A stretch of 28,363 nt of DNA from a virus: positions 1-28,363 of the IMG/VR virus record IMGVR_UViG_3300046002_002810; one strand, 5' to 3'. The translations under genes were made by a program, and so were the position numbers. Below the pieces are notes generated by a model. It ran no database searches, was not told the DNA's origin, and worked only from the letters and a program-made list of their open reading frames with translations. Below, in pieces: positions 7,583-24,760 of this stretch (within the stretch, counting starts at the first letter, position 1; each line of letters opens with the position of its first letter).

Positions 7583-7888
7583 TTATCCACCTGCAAATAC
7601 CGTACTAGATCCTGAAGTAATAGCACCAGAATCTGCTGAATCTCCTAACCTAGCAATAGCAATTCCATCTACAAATACTGAAGAAGAACCAGCATTTATA
7701 CTCACAGAATGAGGTACACATGAATCGCCAACCTTTGTGGTGTGTATAGTAATAGCATCGCCTTTTCTACAAGCCCCAATTCCATCTACAAATACTGTAG
7801 AAGAACCTGCAGATGTAGTAGTTGTCGTGTCACATAAATGTCCTGTACTTACTGTATCAGTTCCAGATTTTCTTGCTACTGCTGCCAT
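7583..7888 (-). CDS. 5.4: PAAR-repeat spike-tip protein (T4 gp5.4-like)
   Basis: 101 residues (T4 gp5.4 is 97), start ATG at 7888. It shows the PAAR pattern: an N-terminal VARKSGTDTVSTGHLCD, then GSSTVFVDGIGACRKGDAIT, a central PHSVSINAGSSSVFVDGIAI with ARLGDS, and a final SGAITSGSSTVFAGG. The three 'S(S)TVFVDG' repeats build the small cone, and the H and C residues (GHLCD, CVPH) are in place to hold a metal. PAAR proteins cap the beta-helical spike of contractile machines and sharpen it for outer-membrane piercing. It lies 7 bases after the needle gene, matching T4, where 5.4 caps gp5. Confidence 0.92.
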   Translation of the reverse strand: MAAVARKSGTDTVSTGHLCDTTTTTSAGSSTVFVDGIGACRKGDAITIHTTKVGDSCVPHSVSINAGSSSVFVDGIAIARLGDSADSGAITSGSSTVFAGG

Positions 7889-17352: not shown

Positions 17353-17499
17353 ATGAACTTTGCTTTAATGCAATACCACAAGTATTCGTTGGCTGAGGTA
17401 GAAAATATGATTCCATTTGAAAAAGAAATCTATGTCAGTATGTTAGTAAATTATCTCGAAGAAGAGAAACAGAGACTACAGAGTAAACAAAATGGATAA
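17353..17499 (+). CDS. Short ORF in -1 frame after gp26; likely C-terminal extension of gp26 or small hub protein
   Basis: From the ATG at 17353 it encodes 48 residues (MNFALMQYHKYSLAEVENMI, then PFEKEIYVSMLVNYLEEEKQ and a short basic tail). Its stop overlaps the next ATG by 8 bases. No Shine-Dalgarno precedes the ATG, and the same frame stays open upstream to gp26, giving LVCLSHESLSNYYK just before the M. The phrase 'SLxNYYxxNFAxMQxHKYSLxELENMIPxE' is one I associate with gp26-region proteins of T4-like phages, which suggests coding starts upstream of the ATG. With the frameshift the fusion would be 299 residues (237+14+48). As a free product it would be a very small hub factor; gp51 is the hub assembly protein nearby in T4, but homology cannot be shown. 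Confidence 0.6.
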   Translation: MNFALMQYHKYSLAEVENMIPFEKEIYVSMLVNYLEEEKQRLQSKQNG

Positions 17500-20194
17500 A
17501 GAAGGTAATAAATCAATAGAAGCTATTTTAGAGAAGCAACAATTAGATGGTGCAGCTCAATTAGAGGTTTTAAAAAACATAGAATCAGATGCAAAAATAG
17601 ATAGAATTTTGCAAGTGGCTCAAGTTGTTGAAGAAAAGCATATACAAGATGACGAAAATGATATGCTTAATGAAACAAAAATCTTTAATGGAATTATTAC
17701 TGAAATTAAAGATTCTATTGATGATACATATCTTCTTCAGGTTGAACAACTTGACAAACTGACTAATATAGAAAAACTTATAGACACCGTTGCATTTGGC
17801 GGAACTAGTTATACTTCCGAAGAAAAATTAGAAAATATAAAGAGAGAAGAAAGATCTATTTCCTTACTAGAAGAAATTGCTAAAAATATTGGTTTGTTAA
17901 AAGAACCAGAAAAAGAAGAAAAGAAACCCGAATCTGAGGGATTTGGGTTAGGAAAGTTTTTAACTGGGTTAGCAATTGCATTAGGCGCATTAGCAGGAAT
18001 TGTTGGCGCATATGTTAAACAATTTAAATTTTTCTTAAAGGGATTTACATATTTTGTAGAAGAATTCAAAAAAGCATTTAAGTTTTTAAACCCTAAACTA
18101 TATGAAGATATAGCAAAAGATATAGAAATGGGTCTTTCAAAAATAAGAAAGGTGTTTTCTAGTATAGGCGAGTGGGTAGAAACTACCATTAGCAAATTTA
18201 AGAAGATATTTACATTTGGAGAAGATTCTAAAATAGGCAAAATTATTACTGGATTTAAACAATCTATATCTAATTTTTTCGAACCCTTTGTAGAAATGTT
18301 CAAAGGTGAATCTAAATTAGGAAAAGTTGTTAGTAGTTTGAAGACTGCTGCAACTATGTTCTTTGAACCTTTTCTTATAGCATTTGAAGAACTAAAAGGA
18401 TTTTTTACTTCAGGTCCTGTAGGTACAATACTCAAAACCCTAAAAAATACGTTTGGATTTATAGGCGAAGGACTTGCTAAATTTGGATCTTTATTTGGTA
18501 AAGTAGCAGGTATAGTTGGAAAACTATTTCTTCCACTAACAATCATAATGACAGCTTGGGATACTATTAAAGGTGCTATTGAGGGGTTTGAGAAAGGTGG
18601 TATCATAGGAGGTATTACTGGAGCAATAAAAGGTCTAGTTGACTCTGTTATTATGGCTCCATTAGATGCACTAAAAAGTATAGTTTCTTGGATAGCAGAA
18701 AAATTTGGATTTGATAGTATATCGAAAGCATTAGATTCATTTTCTTTTGCGAGTATGTTTGATAGTCTATTTGATACAATACCAGAAGCAAAGAAAGCAT
18801 TTTTCGATAATATCAATAATGCACTTCAAACTGTAGTTACTGACATAGGTGAATGGTTTTCGTCTATTGGAGATGATTTACTATCTATGTTAGCGGGAAT
18901 AGGTATTCCAGAATTTACTATACCCGTACCTGAATGGATGGGTGGTCCAATAACACTTGGACCTTGGTATCCATTCAAAGATGAAAGTGTTCCAGAAAAT
19001 GCTCCTAAAAAATCTAATACAGATACAAATAAACAGACTGCTCCTGAAAATGTGTCTAAAGAGGAAATAAAAGATGAAAAATCTAAAGTTTCTGTTATGG
19101 GTGCTAATAAGGTCGCCACAGAAGAACCAACTAAACCAGGTACCAAATATATTCCTTATAAAGAACCAACTAAACCAGGAGAACCAGTTAAAGTTGAATC
19201 AGTTGAATCAATTAAAGCAGAAGAACCAACTAAACCAGGAGAACCAGTTAAAGTTGAATCAGTTGAATCAATTAAAGCAGAAGAACCAACTAAACCAGGT
19301 ACCAAATATATTCCTTATAAAGAACCAACTAAACCAGGAGAACCAGTTAAAGTTGAATCAATTAAAGCAGAAGAACCAACTAAACCAGGAGAACCAGTTA
19401 AAGTTGAATCAGTTAAAGCAGAAGAACCAACTGTAGAAAATAAACCTCAACAAGTAATAAGAACCTTAGATAAAGTTGAACCAACTAAACCAAAAATAGA
19501 AAAACCATGGTGGGCATCTTCTTTAGGTGATGATGAATTTAAACCTGTTGCTCCTACTAAAACCAAACCAGAAGTACAAAGAAAATCTACTTCTGATTAT
19601 GTATTAGCTGAACAGTCTACACAAGTTGAACCAGTTAAAGTTCAATCTGTTAATGTAAAAAATTCAGAATTAATGGGGGATGATCCGAGTAAAAATGCTG
19701 AAATAGTTAAACGAGGTGTTGCACAACAAAGAGAATCAGAACAATTAATTCCAACAGATAATGGTTGGATGAATCCGCAAGTTGAAACTACTCCTAGACC
19801 ATCAATTGAACAACAATTGAACAATCTAGATGCACAACAATTGAACAATCTAGATGCACAACAATCAAAATTTGTAAAACCAGAACAATTAAAACCAGAA
19901 CAATTAATTCCAACAGATAATGGTTGGATGAATCCGCAAGTTGAAACTACTCCTAGACCATCAATTGAACAACAATTGAACAATCTAGATGCACAACAAG
20001 TATATCAGAAATCAGCAGAGAATGTAGATAAGAAAGAAGATATGTCAACTAAATCAGGAGGAAGTACTGTAGTTTCAGCACCAACTGTTAATACATCTAA
20101 TAAGACAGTTAATCAACAAAGTATCAAATTGCCTACTAGGAATTCAGATAGTACATCATCTAGGTATATTTCAAGCAGATACGCTATACAATAA
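17492..20194 (+). CDS. Tape-measure-like tail protein (gp29 position) with in-frame repeats
   Basis: 900 residues, start ATG at 17492. Residues 1-145 are acidic and coiled-coil prone (SIEAILEKQQLDGAAQLEVL). A hydrophobic glycine-rich helix follows (~150-175, LTGLAIALGALAGIVGAYV). Residues ~175-430 are amphipathic helices with a second hydrophobic region (KLFLPLTIIMTAWDTIKGAI, GGIIGGITGAIKGLVDSVIM). This build is typical of tape-measure proteins. The part from ~500 on is low-complexity: an EPTKPGEPVKVESVESIKAE repeat block (~544-648) and a duplicated EQLIPTDNGWMNPQVETTPR block (~749-836). In T4, gp29 (590 aa) sets tail length and belongs to the hub. Position after gp26 agrees, but no direct gp29 similarity is visible. 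Other tail-lumen or structural roles are possible. Confidence 0.62.
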   Translation: MDKEGNKSIEAILEKQQLDGAAQLEVLKNIESDAKIDRILQVAQVVEEKHIQDDENDMLNETKIFNGIITEIKDSIDDTYLLQVEQLDKLTNIEKLIDTVAFGGTSYTSEEKLENIKREERSISLLEEIAKNIGLLKEPEKEEKKPESEGFGLGKFLTGLAIALGALAGIVGAYVKQFKFFLKGFTYFVEEFKKAFKFLNPKLYEDIAKDIEMGLSKIRKVFSSIGEWVETTISKFKKIFTFGEDSKIGKIITGFKQSISNFFEPFVEMFKGESKLGKVVSSLKTAATMFFEPFLIAFEELKGFFTSGPVGTILKTLKNTFGFIGEGLAKFGSLFGKVAGIVGKLFLPLTIIMTAWDTIKGAIEGFEKGGIIGGITGAIKGLVDSVIMAPLDALKSIVSWIAEKFGFDSISKALDSFSFASMFDSLFDTIPEAKKAFFDNINNALQTVVTDIGEWFSSIGDDLLSMLAGIGIPEFTIPVPEWMGGPITLGPWYPFKDESVPENAPKKSNTDTNKQTAPENVSKEEIKDEKSKVSVMGANKVATEEPTKPGTKYIPYKEPTKPGEPVKVESVESIKAEEPTKPGEPVKVESVESIKAEEPTKPGTKYIPYKEPTKPGEPVKVESIKAEEPTKPGEPVKVESVKAEEPTVENKPQQVIRTLDKVEPTKPKIEKPWWASSLGDDEFKPVAPTKTKPEVQRKSTSDYVLAEQSTQVEPVKVQSVNVKNSELMGDDPSKNAEIVKRGVAQQRESEQLIPTDNGWMNPQVETTPRPSIEQQLNNLDAQQLNNLDAQQSKFVKPEQLKPEQLIPTDNGWMNPQVETTPRPSIEQQLNNLDAQQVYQKSAENVDKKEDMSTKSGGSTVVSAPTVNTSNKTVNQQSIKLPTRNSDSTSSRYISSRYAIQ
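19121..19435 (+). repeat. In-frame tandem repeat block, 60-base unit (EPTKPGEPVKVESVESIKAE)
   Basis: A 60-base unit encoding about 20 residues is repeated, sometimes shortened (loss of VES or VESVES) and twice preceded by a GTKYIPYK spacer. The two spacer-containing blocks begin at 19121 and 19280, 159 bases (53 codons) apart. All unit lengths are multiples of three, so the reading frame is kept. Low divergence between copies points to recent slippage or recombination. Confidence 0.9.
19737..19999 (+). repeat. Identical 104-base direct repeat in the tape-measure-like gene
   Basis: Bases 19737-19840 recur without visible change at 19896-19999 (offset 159 bases, 53 codons), each encoding EQLIPTDNGWMNPQVETTPR and the following RPSIEQQLNNLDAQQ. 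The end of the first copy is followed by a further 24-base tandem copy (19817-19840 and 19841-19864, LNNLDAQQ). This is a recent in-frame duplication in the C-terminal third of the protein. Confidence 0.92.
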
Positions 20195-20234: not shown

Positions 20235-21146
20235 TTAATCTTCTTGTGCTAACTTACTGAAATATGCTAAAGTATCATCATCATCATCAGAAGCGGACTT
20301 ACTTGCTATAGGTTTAGCAACTGCTTCTTTTAATGCTGGTTTAGAAAAACTAGGCATATCATTTTCAAAAGATAATTCCTCTGCAGTTTGATTACTAAAA
20401 CTATCACCAGATAATACTGCTTCTAATTTCTTCTTTAGTTCATCATATGATTTAAACCCTTCAGGTTTAATGAATTCTTGGATGTTGTGACGTTGCTTCA
20501 TTACCTCAACAATTTTATCATCATCACCTACAGAACATACATCAGAAAAAGTAGAATCATCATAATTTGCTCTACCGTCTTTCTTACGCATTCTAAATTT
20601 AAAATTAACACCTTCCCACAAATCAAAAGGATTTACTGGAACATCATCTTCAAAAGTAGGTTTTAGTTTACTCATCAATTTATTAAAAATTGCTGGACCA
20701 TACTTGAAAATCATTACCTTACCTTCGTTCTCAGGATGTTTAATATCTGATACAATTAAGATATTAGAAACATATTGAGTACGTTGACCTCTGGTTCTTG
20801 CCAATGTTTCATTAGTTGGAATCTTGGTTGCCCACAATGAATTAACATGATTCAAAGCTGGGTCTTCTTGTCCTAAAGTTTTAAGACTATTTTCAATATA
20901 CCATTTACCTGTAGGACCTTGAAATCCAAAGTTCAATATCTTTACCCAAGGTGCTGAATATTCATCGCCTTCAATATTAGGAAGAAATCTGATAACTGCG
21001 GAACCGTTACCTAGCTTATCGCCTTCTAAACGCCACAAGCGTTCATCTACATTATTAGTCCGAACTGTTTTATTTTCAAACTTTTCAACCATCGATGAAA
21101 AATCTGTAGTTCTTGATTTACGAAGCGATCCAATATCTAATGTCAT
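20235..21146 (-). CDS. 32: Single-stranded DNA-binding protein gp32
   Basis: 303 residues (T4 gp32 is 301), start ATG at 21146 with AGGAAAAACAA upstream. The N-terminus LRKSRTTDFSS fits the basic 'LAST' motif used for cooperative binding. The core has GNGSAVIRFLPNIEGDEYSA, then WVKILNFGFQGPTGKWYIEN and LSGDSFSN near 250. The C-terminus is acidic (SDDDDDTLAYFSKLAQED), the tail used to recruit replication partners. The zinc ligands of T4 gp32 (His-Cys-Cys-Cys, ~64-90) are absent: the matching region ENSLKTLGQEDPALNHVNSL has no Cys. The protein coats ssDNA in replication, recombination and repair. A pseudoknot-like element (21185-21226) precedes the gene and may serve autoregulation as in T4. 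Confidence 0.93.
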   Translation of the reverse strand: MTLDIGSLRKSRTTDFSSMVEKFENKTVRTNNVDERLWRLEGDKLGNGSAVIRFLPNIEGDEYSAPWVKILNFGFQGPTGKWYIENSLKTLGQEDPALNHVNSLWATKIPTNETLARTRGQRTQYVSNILIVSDIKHPENEGKVMIFKYGPAIFNKLMSKLKPTFEDDVPVNPFDLWEGVNFKFRMRKKDGRANYDDSTFSDVCSVGDDDKIVEVMKQRHNIQEFIKPEGFKSYDELKKKLEAVLSGDSFSNQTAEELSFENDMPSFSKPALKEAVAKPIASKSASDDDDDTLAYFSKLAQED

Positions 21147-21184
21147 TTGTTTTTCCTATACGAGTTTTACGGGCTTAGTTTAGT

Positions 21185-21226
21185 TGTCTGATTAATAATT
21201 ATAGGGTTACAGACATAACCTATAAT
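21185..21226 (-). promoter_or_regulatory. Candidate H-type pseudoknot in the gp32 mRNA leader (autoregulatory operator)
   Basis: Read on the minus strand: arm ATTATAGGTTA (21226-21216), loop TGTCTG (21215-21210), arm TAACCCTATAAT (21209-21198), linker TATTAAT, then CAGACA (21190-21185). The two arms pair over about 11 base pairs with one bulged base. The six-base loop is the exact complement of CAGACA, so loop and tail can form the second stem. The element begins at the gp59 stop and ends 38 bases before the gp32 ATG, with an unstructured-looking A-rich stretch between. T4 gene 32 mRNA has a pseudoknot at a comparable place that nucleates gp32 binding and translational repression. Confidence 0.65.
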
Positions 21227-21831
21227 TCATTCAATTCCTCTTCAAAGGAATCTATGATCGGTTTGATACGATTTTTATCGTACCTTACAAACTTTTTGAG
21301 CTTAGATACTCTACATATATCCTTATCCCAAAATGAAGTAGCGAATTCAGCATTTTTCCATCCATCTATCATATTCAGGTAATCATCTATTATTCGTACA
21401 GACTCAATAGAAATGTGTTTGCCTAGATATAGAGATAGTATAGCTGATGGAGTGCTAAAAGTAAAGTCTAATACCTCTTTTTTTGTTAATTTATTTTTCT
21501 GTGCAATTTGAATAATCTTATCAATATCATCAGAAAATACTTTTGTTATGCTTTCCTTTCTTTTTACCCATTCAAAGTAACAAGAGGTTGATTCTTCTTC
21601 ATTGTATACAAAATTAGTATTACCATAGGCAAAATTAGCAACATAAAACTGAATCAATTCTCTATCTACAGGATGTTTCTTAGCTAATTTCTCAAATAAA
21701 AATCTATCATTCCTTTTTTCGAACGACTTCTGACTACAGTTTATCTTTGGGTTTTTAAACACATCAAATGAATCTTTTGAAAAGTGTAACTTTAGAGCCA
21801 TATAATATCGATATGCTTGAATACCATCCAT
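21220..21831 (-). CDS. 59: Helicase loader gp59
   Basis: 203 residues (T4 gp59 is 217), start ATG at 21831, one base after the gp33 stop. The N-terminus MDGIQAYRYYMALKLHFSKD is close to the family opening, followed by FEKRNDRFLFEKLAKKHP (~38-55) and RELIQFYVANFAYGNTNFVY (~57-76). The rest is helical and basic, ending in a short acidic tail. gp59 binds fork DNA and gp32 and loads the gp41 helicase. Order gp33-gp59-gp32 in the direction of transcription is the T4 arrangement. The gene stop lies inside the first arm of the gp32-leader pseudoknot. Confidence 0.9.
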   Translation of the reverse strand: MDGIQAYRYYMALKLHFSKDSFDVFKNPKINCSQKSFEKRNDRFLFEKLAKKHPVDRELIQFYVANFAYGNTNFVYNEEESTSCYFEWVKRKESITKVFSDDIDKIIQIAQKNKLTKKEVLDFTFSTPSAILSLYLGKHISIESVRIIDDYLNMIDGWKNAEFATSFWDKDICRVSKLKKFVRYDKNRIKPIIDSFEEELNEL

Positions 21832-21832
21832 A

Positions 21833-22051
21833 TTAAAATTCTATTGTTGCTGTTTTTGGTAACCAATTCTGCGATTGAAATTCAACCTCAATCTTATCTC
21901 TTAAAGATTTATTAATCAGATTTGTTATATCCTCAGGTTCAATAAAATTAGTTTCGCAATATGATAAAATAGTAGAAATCAGATCCATTTCTTTATCATC
22001 TGCTAGTGATTCTATATGGTAAGAAAACTCAGACGCATTCTCAAACAGCAT
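21833..22051 (-). CDS. 33: Late transcription coactivator gp33
   Basis: 72 residues, shorter than T4 gp33 (112), start ATG at 22051, overlapping the end of the upstream gene by 11 bases. It is acidic and helical: FENASEFSYHIESLADDKEM, then ISTILSYCETNFIEPEDITN and LINKSLRDKIEVEFQSQNWL, ending LPKTATIEF. This matches the small gp33 proteins of cyanophage-type T4 relatives, including the 'EPEDIxxLINKSLxDKIEVE' core. In T4, gp33 bridges RNA polymerase and the gp45 sliding clamp on late promoters. The NATAAATA boxes in this window are its expected targets. Its position next to gp59 supports the call. Confidence 0.8.
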   Translation of the reverse strand: MLFENASEFSYHIESLADDKEMDLISTILSYCETNFIEPEDITNLINKSLRDKIEVEFQSQNWLPKTATIEF

Positions 22052-22574: not shown

Positions 22575-23051
22575 CTATACTTTTTGCGATTTCAGAGCTT
22601 TATAAAAATAATGCTTTCCTATTTTAACAGTTCTCTTGGGTCTTTTTGAATATCTGTATTTAAACGAATCAAACGAATCAAAATTACCTATAGGATTTTT
22701 TACATTACCATATAAAATGTTTTCAGCCAACTTTATGTACTCAGCACGATCTTCTTTTGGAATACGTTTTTGGGTATATTGCTGTTTCACTACTTTACAA
22801 GCTGGTTTGTGGAATATATGCTTAGACCTAGTGACAATCGTTGCTCCTACAGCAAGTTGTCCAGTCAATGGCTCACCTCTCGCCTCTGAGTATATGGTCT
22901 CGGCGACACATTGTATATCTCTTTTTGAAATATGACTATCCACAATGGTAGTCTTTGTTTTTGATATAACATTCTTTTTATAAGTAATAGTCTGAGCATA
23001 CGAAGATGCAGACATAATACTTAGACATAAGAGCAGTATTGTTGCTCGCAT
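22575..23051 (-). CDS. Secreted SleB-type cell wall hydrolase (endolysin candidate)
   Basis: 158 residues, start ATG at 23051 with GGAGAACCAC upstream. Residues 1-20 (MRATILLLCLSIMSASSYAQ) form a clear Sec signal peptide with an AYAQ-type cleavage end. The mature part carries the Hydrolase_2/SleB motif: RDIQCVAETIYSEARGEPLT (~44-63), then GQLAVGATIVTRSKH, and ends with KIGKHYFYKALKSQ, the usual 'GxHxFYK' close. The Glu residues in the AETIYSEARGE stretch include the presumed catalytic acid. SleB-type enzymes cut peptidoglycan glycan chains. With a signal peptide it could be exported by the host without a holin. No other complete lysis enzyme is in the window. Its leader has a strong hairpin (23075-23099). 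Confidence 0.85.
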   Translation of the reverse strand: MRATILLLCLSIMSASSYAQTITYKKNVISKTKTTIVDSHISKRDIQCVAETIYSEARGEPLTGQLAVGATIVTRSKHIFHKPACKVVKQQYTQKRIPKEDRAEYIKLAENILYGNVKNPIGNFDSFDSFKYRYSKRPKRTVKIGKHYFYKALKSQKV

Positions 23052-23527: not shown

Positions 23528-24760
23528 TTATTTTTCCCAAGAACCAGTATCTGGCACATAAGAAGATATCTTTGCTGCTAATTCTTTCTCGGGTATTTGT
23601 ATTGCTTGCCCTTGTTTCTTAACCTTTACATATTGAGCGCCCTTAGCAATAAAAGATCCTCCAGCAACAGATTTCTTTACATCAGAATCAACACCAGAAG
23701 AATTAAATGCAATCCACATATCACCATTCATATACTTTGATAGATTAGCATCTACTGAATAAATCAAACTGTGTAGAGTCATTGCAGCACCCTTATGAGT
23801 AGCGATAAGGATTTCATCACTTACCATTCTACCTTCAGGTTTACTAGCACCTCTAGCAATATTTTGTTGTCTTGCTTTCTCAACTGGAGTTACAATCCAA
23901 ACAATGTGTATGTTATCTTTCTCATAACCCAATGGCATTACATTCCGACTAATTCTATCTAACTTGTCAAGGTCTTTTAATGTAACATCAAATATCAGAT
24001 TAGGTTTTCTATCAGGAGCAGATGTAGCAATAGACTTAAACAGACTTGCTTCTACCTTATCTGTGATACCCATTTGATTGGAAATTATATCGTGTAGGAT
24101 AGAAGTATTCTTCGAATCAGATAATGGAAGTGCCTCATAACTGATATCAACACCAGTTTTGGCTTTTATCAATCCGACTAACTGAACAGATTTACCAACC
24201 CATTTCTTAACATCATCAACATTGATAACTTTTCCTTCAATACCAAGAAGTTTAGATTGAATGAATCCTTTACCAGAACCTGCGCCACCAGCTTGGATAA
24301 CAACTTGCCCAAACTTTGGATATGCTTTACCGCCAAAGGTAATGAGTGCTTCTTCTAATTCTTCTTGTTTGTTAATGTAGGTCTTAAATGATTCAACAGC
24401 CAATACAGGCGAAGATGATTTGAATCCCTTTTTTCTCATAATGGTTTTTGCAACCATTTCTAATTTATTATCCTTCCTGTTGAATGATAAATTAATTGGA
24501 ATATTAATATCTGTGCTTAATGATTTAATTAACTCCTCAACCTCTTTAGATGTCTTAGATAACTTAACACCAAACTTATCGTATAAGCTGTGATAGATAT
24601 TAATTAATTCGCTGATGGTAATCTGGTCTACATTTCTAGGATCATTAATTCTATCAAAGAAATGTTTGCTGAACTCTACATCAATTCCAACTTTATTAAA
24701 CAATTTGTCGAGTGATTTCTCTATGACATTTAACTGTATTTTAGATATTACGTCAGCCAC
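23528..24760 (-). CDS. P-loop NTPase/kinase-like protein with conserved N-terminal domain
   Basis: 410 residues, start ATG at 24760 with AAGGAACGG upstream. The N-terminal ~70 residues contain FSKHFFDRINDPRNVDQITI then SELINIYHSLYDKFGVKL, a phrase I have seen in uncharacterised T4-like phage proteins. The second half is a P-loop domain: VVIQAGGAGSGKGFIQSKLL with Walker A GGAGSGKG (~158-165), VINVDDVKKW shortly after, LIFDVTLKD as a likely Walker B-type strand, and HIVWIVTPVEKARQQNIARG, typical of kinase/zeta-toxin-like folds. The C-terminal ~80 residues are Lys/Ser rich. Phosphorylation of a small molecule or protein is possible; the substrate is not indicated. Confidence 0.72.
   Translation of the reverse strand: MADVISKIQLNVIEKSLDKLFNKVGIDVEFSKHFFDRINDPRNVDQITISELINIYHSLYDKFGVKLSKTSKEVEELIKSLSTDINIPINLSFNRKDNKLEMVAKTIMRKKGFKSSSPVLAVESFKTYINKQEELEEALITFGGKAYPKFGQVVIQAGGAGSGKGFIQSKLLGIEGKVINVDDVKKWVGKSVQLVGLIKAKTGVDISYEALPLSDSKNTSILHDIISNQMGITDKVEASLFKSIATSAPDRKPNLIFDVTLKDLDKLDRISRNVMPLGYEKDNIHIVWIVTPVEKARQQNIARGASKPEGRMVSDEILIATHKGAAMTLHSLIYSVDANLSKYMNGDMWIAFNSSGVDSDVKKSVAGGSFIAKGAQYVKVKKQGQAIQIPEKELAAKISSYVPDTGSWEK

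Follow-up and report, generated by a model that had tools for sequence, protein, structure and literature searches.

The gene 32 leader in this viral DNA raises the question of whether it folds into a pseudoknot through which gp32 could repress its own translation, as in T4. A 2010 review called the T4 gp32 operator possibly the sole viral pseudoknot used for translational autoregulation, and how gp32 distinguishes its own message from other nucleic acid was called unclear (PMC3014915). The window, the whole stretch of DNA that was analyzed, is an IMG/VR virus record of 28,363 bases.

The gp59-gp32 junction and the predicted fold of its leader

On the minus strand, gp59 (21220..21831), a 203-aa helicase loader (Pfam PF08993, E 2.4e-9; PHROG 269, E 1.6e-37), lies upstream of gp32 (20235..21146), a 303-aa single-strand DNA binding protein that is the presumed repressor as well as the product (Pfam PF08804, E 4.9e-36; PHROG 224, E 3.5e-89). 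The DNA-binding domain of gp32 is present, as judged by PF08804 and the PDB gp32 entries 8gme, 2atq, 2a1k, and 1gpc, all solved structures matched with E values of 5e-32 to 3e-31. A LAST-like basic/Ser-Thr motif (LRKSRTT, residues 8-14) at the N terminus and an acidic C terminus (DDDDDTLAYFSKLAQED) were recognized by eye. The zinc site of T4 gp32 is made of His64 or His81, Cys77, Cys87, and Cys90, and the window protein lacks these ligands. A 53-protein alignment places F, S, L, a gap, and L at T4 positions 64, 77, 81, 87, and 90, and the T4 zinc site is therefore absent from the window gp32. The other marine-clade rows of the alignment likewise lack the full ligand set.

A gp33-like late-transcription coactivator (21833-22051, minus strand; PF16805, E 3.6e-17) is located directly before gp59. 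The same strand encodes a cell wall hydrolase that, judged by eye, probably carries a signal peptide (22575-23051; PF07486, E 3.4e-9) and a 410-aa protein with a Zeta-toxin-type kinase domain (23528-24760; PF06414, E 2.4e-9) that also matches PHROG 5268, a family of unknown function (E 1.3e-92). The open reading frame at 17492-20194 encodes a 900-aa protein with a weak match to tape measure families (PHROG 58, E 1.2e-10); within it, on the plus strand at 19161-19432, are tandem repeats of 51-60 bases with EEPTKPGEPVKVESVESIKA units.

Two stems, a 9-bp stem 1 and a 6-bp stem 2, can form between 21227 and 21185 of the minus strand; together they make an interlocked H-type pseudoknot that covers the gp59 stop codon. 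In stem 1, the 5' arm AATTATAGG (21219..21227) takes in the tail of the final gp59 codons together with the TAG stop (21222-21220), and the 3' arm is CCTATAATT (21197..21205). Loop 1, TTA (21216..21218), leads into the 5' arm of stem 2, TGTCTG (21210..21215), which pairs with CAGACA (21185..21190) by six Watson-Crick pairs out of six. These arms and loop 1 come from both the sequence and the scanner described below. Four nucleotides, TAAC (21206..21209), separate the 5' arm of stem 2 from the 3' arm of stem 1 in the sequence, and loop 3, ATTAAT (21191..21196), crosses stem 1. By a length estimate from ideal A-form geometry these 6 nt must cover 36.9 Å over 9 bp, which is reachable but tight. 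The loops are thus 3, 4, and 6 nt with a 9-bp stem 1, and the last loop is 7 nt with an 8-bp stem 1, the form with loops of 3, 4, and 7 that an earlier note on this DNA had described. That note's H-type layout, with the loop TGTCTG complementary to the downstream CAGACA, held up, as did its placement at the gp59 stop and 38 bases before the gp32 ATG; the knot ends 38 nt from the ATG at 21146. Its hairpin of about 11 bp with one bulge exists, but the count is 12 bp: when the knot is open the TAA of TAAC can pair with TTA, which extends stem 1 beyond a bulged C. The 9-bp stem 1 with an open loop 1 is favored over the 12-bp hairpin because the relative L082 lacks one base of the TTA and keeps both stems.

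The 38 nt between the knot and the start codon (21147..21184) are A-rich and nearly unstructured (MFE -0.4 kcal/mol, 66% A+U) and include the Shine-Dalgarno sequence AGGA. They contain ACUAAACUAA and GUAAAAC, which are two UAAA units; UUAAA repeats are absent. By analogy with T4 (PMC535899), this spacer is the proposed site of cooperative gp32 binding.

The strength of the fold was evaluated with a purpose-written H-type pseudoknot scanner that sums the nearest-neighbor stacks of both stems with small loop penalties, and its output is a rough score rather than a free energy. The scanner selected this knot in the window leader with a score of -21.0, compared to a mean of -3.2 for shuffled leaders, and none of 1000 dinucleotide shuffles scored as well. 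When stem 1 was fixed and the loop and downstream sequence were shuffled, an equally strong stem 2 arose in 59 of 5000 trials (p ~0.012). Real sequence is a more demanding yardstick. The 1132 tiles of 100 nt cut from the two strands of the window include four, at three other sites, that outscored the knot, and about 0.4-0.6% of the tiles scored at least as well. The energy is only suggestive against real tiles, and the comparison with relatives therefore carries the argument. The top pseudoknot-like tile of the window (7764-7863, minus strand, score -26.0) reads as coding and is probably a chance structure.

The leader in related and known phages

Searches with gp59 and gp32 gave >150 loci, the majority of which have an extra small open reading frame between the two genes. 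The direct gp59-gp32 order with a gap of 72-94 nt is found in the window and in L082/L085, L083, L084, L003/L093/L094, L095, and L096. Their gp32 proteins are 94% (L082/L085), 81% (L083), 75% (L084), about 55-59% (L003/L093/L094), 56% (L095), and 55% (L096) identical to that of the window. With the exception of L096, every one of these loci has a pseudoknot where gp59 stops: the start of stem 1 ranges from 5 nt upstream to 4 nt downstream of the first stop-codon base. The letters differ. Stem 1 and stem 2 are ATAGTTTG/CAAACTAT and GGCGG/CCGTC in L083, TTATAGG/CCTATAA and GGCTATT/AATAGTC in L084, ATTTCCG/CGGGAAT and TGGCGTT/AACGTCA in L003, and CTAG/CTAG and GACGTA/TACGTC in L095. Loop 1 is 3 nt in the window, 2 nt in L082, and 1 nt in L083, L084, L003, L095, and T4. 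In L084, L003, and L095 the 1-nt loop 1 is combined with 0-1 bases between the stems, which is the shape of the T4 knot, the values being exactly 1 and 0 in L084 and L095. The distance from knot to ATG is 38, 32, 36, 53, and 59 nt across the window and four relatives, and the sequence 3' of the knots is unstructured with 66-85% A+U. The downstream stretch of L084 has TTTAAATTAAATTAAAT, which resembles the UUAAA repeats of T4.

The conditional p values for stem 2 are 0.012 in the window, 0.025 in L083, 0.011 in L084, 0.005 in L003, and 0.0002 in L095. Their Fisher combination is about 8e-8, a value that is approximate because the phages are related, although their stem 2 letters nonetheless differ. 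MAFFT alignment of the leaders put the 5' arms in the wrong place, and the pairs were therefore lined up from two fixed points, the gp59 stop codon and a conserved flank; the 3' arm of stem 2 in L003 and L095 was anchored by the common flank ACGTCAATACTAAAA. Between these two leaders, one stem 2 pair changes on both sides, from U-A to A-U, and another changes from G-U to A-U. The stem 1 pair that follows the stop codon also varies: the window and L084 have G-C, and L083 has U-A. The predicted pseudoknot is a real feature of the leader, and it is conservation in relatives, not energy alone, that proves it.

Several loci gave no such structure. L096, which falls on the same side of the gp32 tree as L003/L095 and has the same gene order, has no convincing stem 2 (p 0.05-0.11) and retains a weak stem 1 of seven pairs, three of them G-U, when paired by hand. 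The scanner found no clear knot in L181 and L219, which have the direct order and a 101-nt gap, and no pseudoknot was found in L002, L005, or L128. It also found no such pseudoknot in the ~75 relatives with an inserted reading frame. Five of 75 unique intervening-ORF loci (L046, L014, L058, L223, and L236) reached p < 0.01 for some structure after the gp59 stop; the stretch is mostly the inserted frame, and these scores are provisionally attributed to chance or to coding signal. In L010 (1104-1886) the gp59-gp32 gap is 781 bases, and a long hairpin, GGTAGTGGGAA...TTCCGTGACTACC, lies upstream of gp32. No near-identical DNA was found among phage records, a gp32 search of genome contigs gave no match, and an Rfam search of the leader gave none. 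An exact-pattern scan with ATTATAGGTTATGTCTG matched four contigs that had no such leader around the match.

Known phages served as controls for the scanner. Its best answer reproduced the published knots of T4 (p 0.004) and RB69 (0/500). It did not reach p 0.05 with the RB49-like Krischvirus LF73P4, Citrobacter CF1, Serratia PS2, the Pelagibacter phages HTVC008M and Mosig, the Methylophilales phage Melnitz, or most of the cyanophages tested. Aeromonas Riv-10 was borderline (p 0.036), with a structure more distant from the start codon. The scanner also returned a candidate gp32 leader knot like those of T4 and RB69 in Klebsiella phage Roth79 (L206, 360-429; 0/500) and a strong candidate of another shape in Acinetobacter phage Konradin (L209, 310-420; p 0.002). 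We know of no description of gp32 leader pseudoknots in Konradin or Roth79.

A maximum-likelihood gp32 tree was built from the 53-protein alignment. The knot carriers fall into the T4 clade and a marine clade, and the gp32 of the window is far removed from the former. It groups with L082, L083, and L084 with good support, and L093 and L095 form another pair. The distribution of the knot requires four changes on the tree, at least three of which are forced by well supported branches. The tree is compatible both with one ancient origin followed by repeated losses and with several separate gains by convergence. We tentatively raise a more specific idea, which we rate as rather less than even: marine T4-like phages may have evolved a gp32 knot operator independently of the coliphages, with a zinc-less gp32 that reads shape rather than sequence and a knot placed around the gp59 stop so that gp59 translation times the repression.

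The proposed operator function and its alternatives

We favor, with fair confidence, the interpretation that the element is a gp32 translational operator that acts as in T4. The arms can pair, the element sits ahead of gp32, relatives retain it with other letters, and the stretch downstream is unstructured; from these features we infer folding in the cell, gp32 binding, repression, and coupling to gp59 termination. The leader of the gp59-gp32 transcript would fold into the H-type pseudoknot. Once there is more gp32 than the single-stranded DNA can take up, one gp32 molecule would bind the pseudoknot, and further monomers would align cooperatively on the A-rich unstructured stretch toward the start codon until the ribosome binding site is covered and gp32 halts its own synthesis. 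Since the gp59 stop codon lies in stem 1, a ribosome finishing gp59 would have to open the knot, and repression may be lifted for a short time by gp59 translation. The earlier note had proposed a T4-like operator; its structural part is supported by four diverged relatives and by the scanner's detection of the T4 and RB69 knots, and its gp32 binding and repression go as far as fitting the anatomy and precedent (PMC535899; PMC3014915). Counting against an operator are the tight 6-nt loop 3 over 9 bp, the 4 nt between the stems, the equal scores at about 0.4% of tiles, the lack of a convincing knot in L096, L181, and L219, and the absence of zinc ligands. The ligand of the knot could be another protein.

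The absence of the T4 zinc site also fits an unlikely but appreciable alternative in which the knot is real and has another role without gp32 binding, either in stabilizing the gp32 message at its 5' end or marking where that message is processed, or as a device that couples gp32 translation to ribosomes ending gp59. The knot encloses the gp59 stop codon, and RNase E cuts T4 gene 32 messages, which are unusually stable, at -71, a short way 5' of the knot (PMC3014915). The nearby gp32 start, the A-rich unstructured stretch, and the T4/RB69-like spacing are nevertheless what a gp32 operator needs, and the two roles are not mutually exclusive. It is distinctly improbable that only the stem 1 hairpin functions, as a barrier to decay or translation, and that stem 2 is a chance match. 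Stem 2 of the window alone reaches only p 0.012 and equal-scoring knots occur at ~0.4% of tiles, but a stem 2 partner is present in four of four relatives with different loops (combined p 8e-8), and L003 and L095 differ by a two-sided change.

Transcription signals were also considered. A -10-like hexamer, TATAAT, lies in the 3' arm of stem 1 inside CCTATAAT, but no promoter-like match had its hexamers in the hairpin, and TATAAT is not conserved in L083 (TATGAT), L003, and L095. There is no T run and no terminator-like match at the site, and we consider an intrinsic terminator or a promoter very unlikely. A late promoter (TATAAATA) was tested along with these and rejected. L096, L181, and L219 share the gene order without the knot, as a chance structure in an AT-rich leader would allow; the outcome of the shuffling and the reappearance of the knot at the same spot with other letters make chance the least credible of these explanations, with almost no weight. 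Returning to the gp32 operator, T4-style self-control of gp32 probably extends to marine phages whose gp32 has no zinc site.

Comparison with known operators

This kind of element is already known; the present case stands apart by its sequence, its clade, the zinc-less gp32, and the overlap with a stop codon. Five knots that share a position but not their stem sequences, next to a zinc-less gp32, are a natural test of whether shape or sequence is read, and the marine knots also test whether the gp32 zinc finger is needed. They bear on whether gp32 autoregulation is ancestral with repeated loss or had more than one origin. Our literature search, which mostly lay outside subscription journals, found no gp32 pseudoknot beyond the T4/RB69 group.

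Two other arrangements are instructive. The RB49-type phages (Krischvirus) are also T4-like, with gp32 after gp59, but lack the knot according to the scanner (LF73P4), and RB49 has no gp32 leader pseudoknot (PMC3014915; PMC535899). The operator of gp43, the DNA polymerase of T4 and RB69, is likewise a structured leader through which a replication protein represses its own message (PMC3014915), but it belongs to a different gene and is a hairpin without a pseudoknot.

The closest precedent is the gene 32 operator of T4, T2, and RB69, in which an H-type knot also lies in the gp32 leader with gp59 upstream. In T4, gp32 binding is nucleated at the knot and extends from there along UUAAA repeats as far as the ribosome binding site (PMC535899). 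Between T4 and RB69 the operators are ~70% alike (PMC535899), whereas the window leader has no sequence likeness to either; the earlier note's remark that the sequence is not that of T4 is borne out by the lack of an Rfam match and by different stems. Stem 1 is 9 bp compared to 4-5 bp in the T4 type, and stem 2 is 6 bp compared to 7 bp. Loop 1 is 3 nt compared to 1 nt in T4, and the 4 nt between the stems, compared to 0 in T4, hinder the coaxial stacking seen in T2. The spacer is without the T4-type UUAAA repeats, which L084 has. The upstream reading frame whose 3' end overlaps the knot is gp59 in the window and segG in T4 (PMC535899), and a gp59 stop codon inside stem 1 is a feature of the window, unlike the T4-type operators. 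The placement is nonetheless that of T4: an unstructured A+U-rich stretch runs up to the Shine-Dalgarno sequence as in T4 and RB69, and the distance from knot to ATG is 38 nt in the window, 39 nt in T4, and 45 nt in RB69 by the same scanner.
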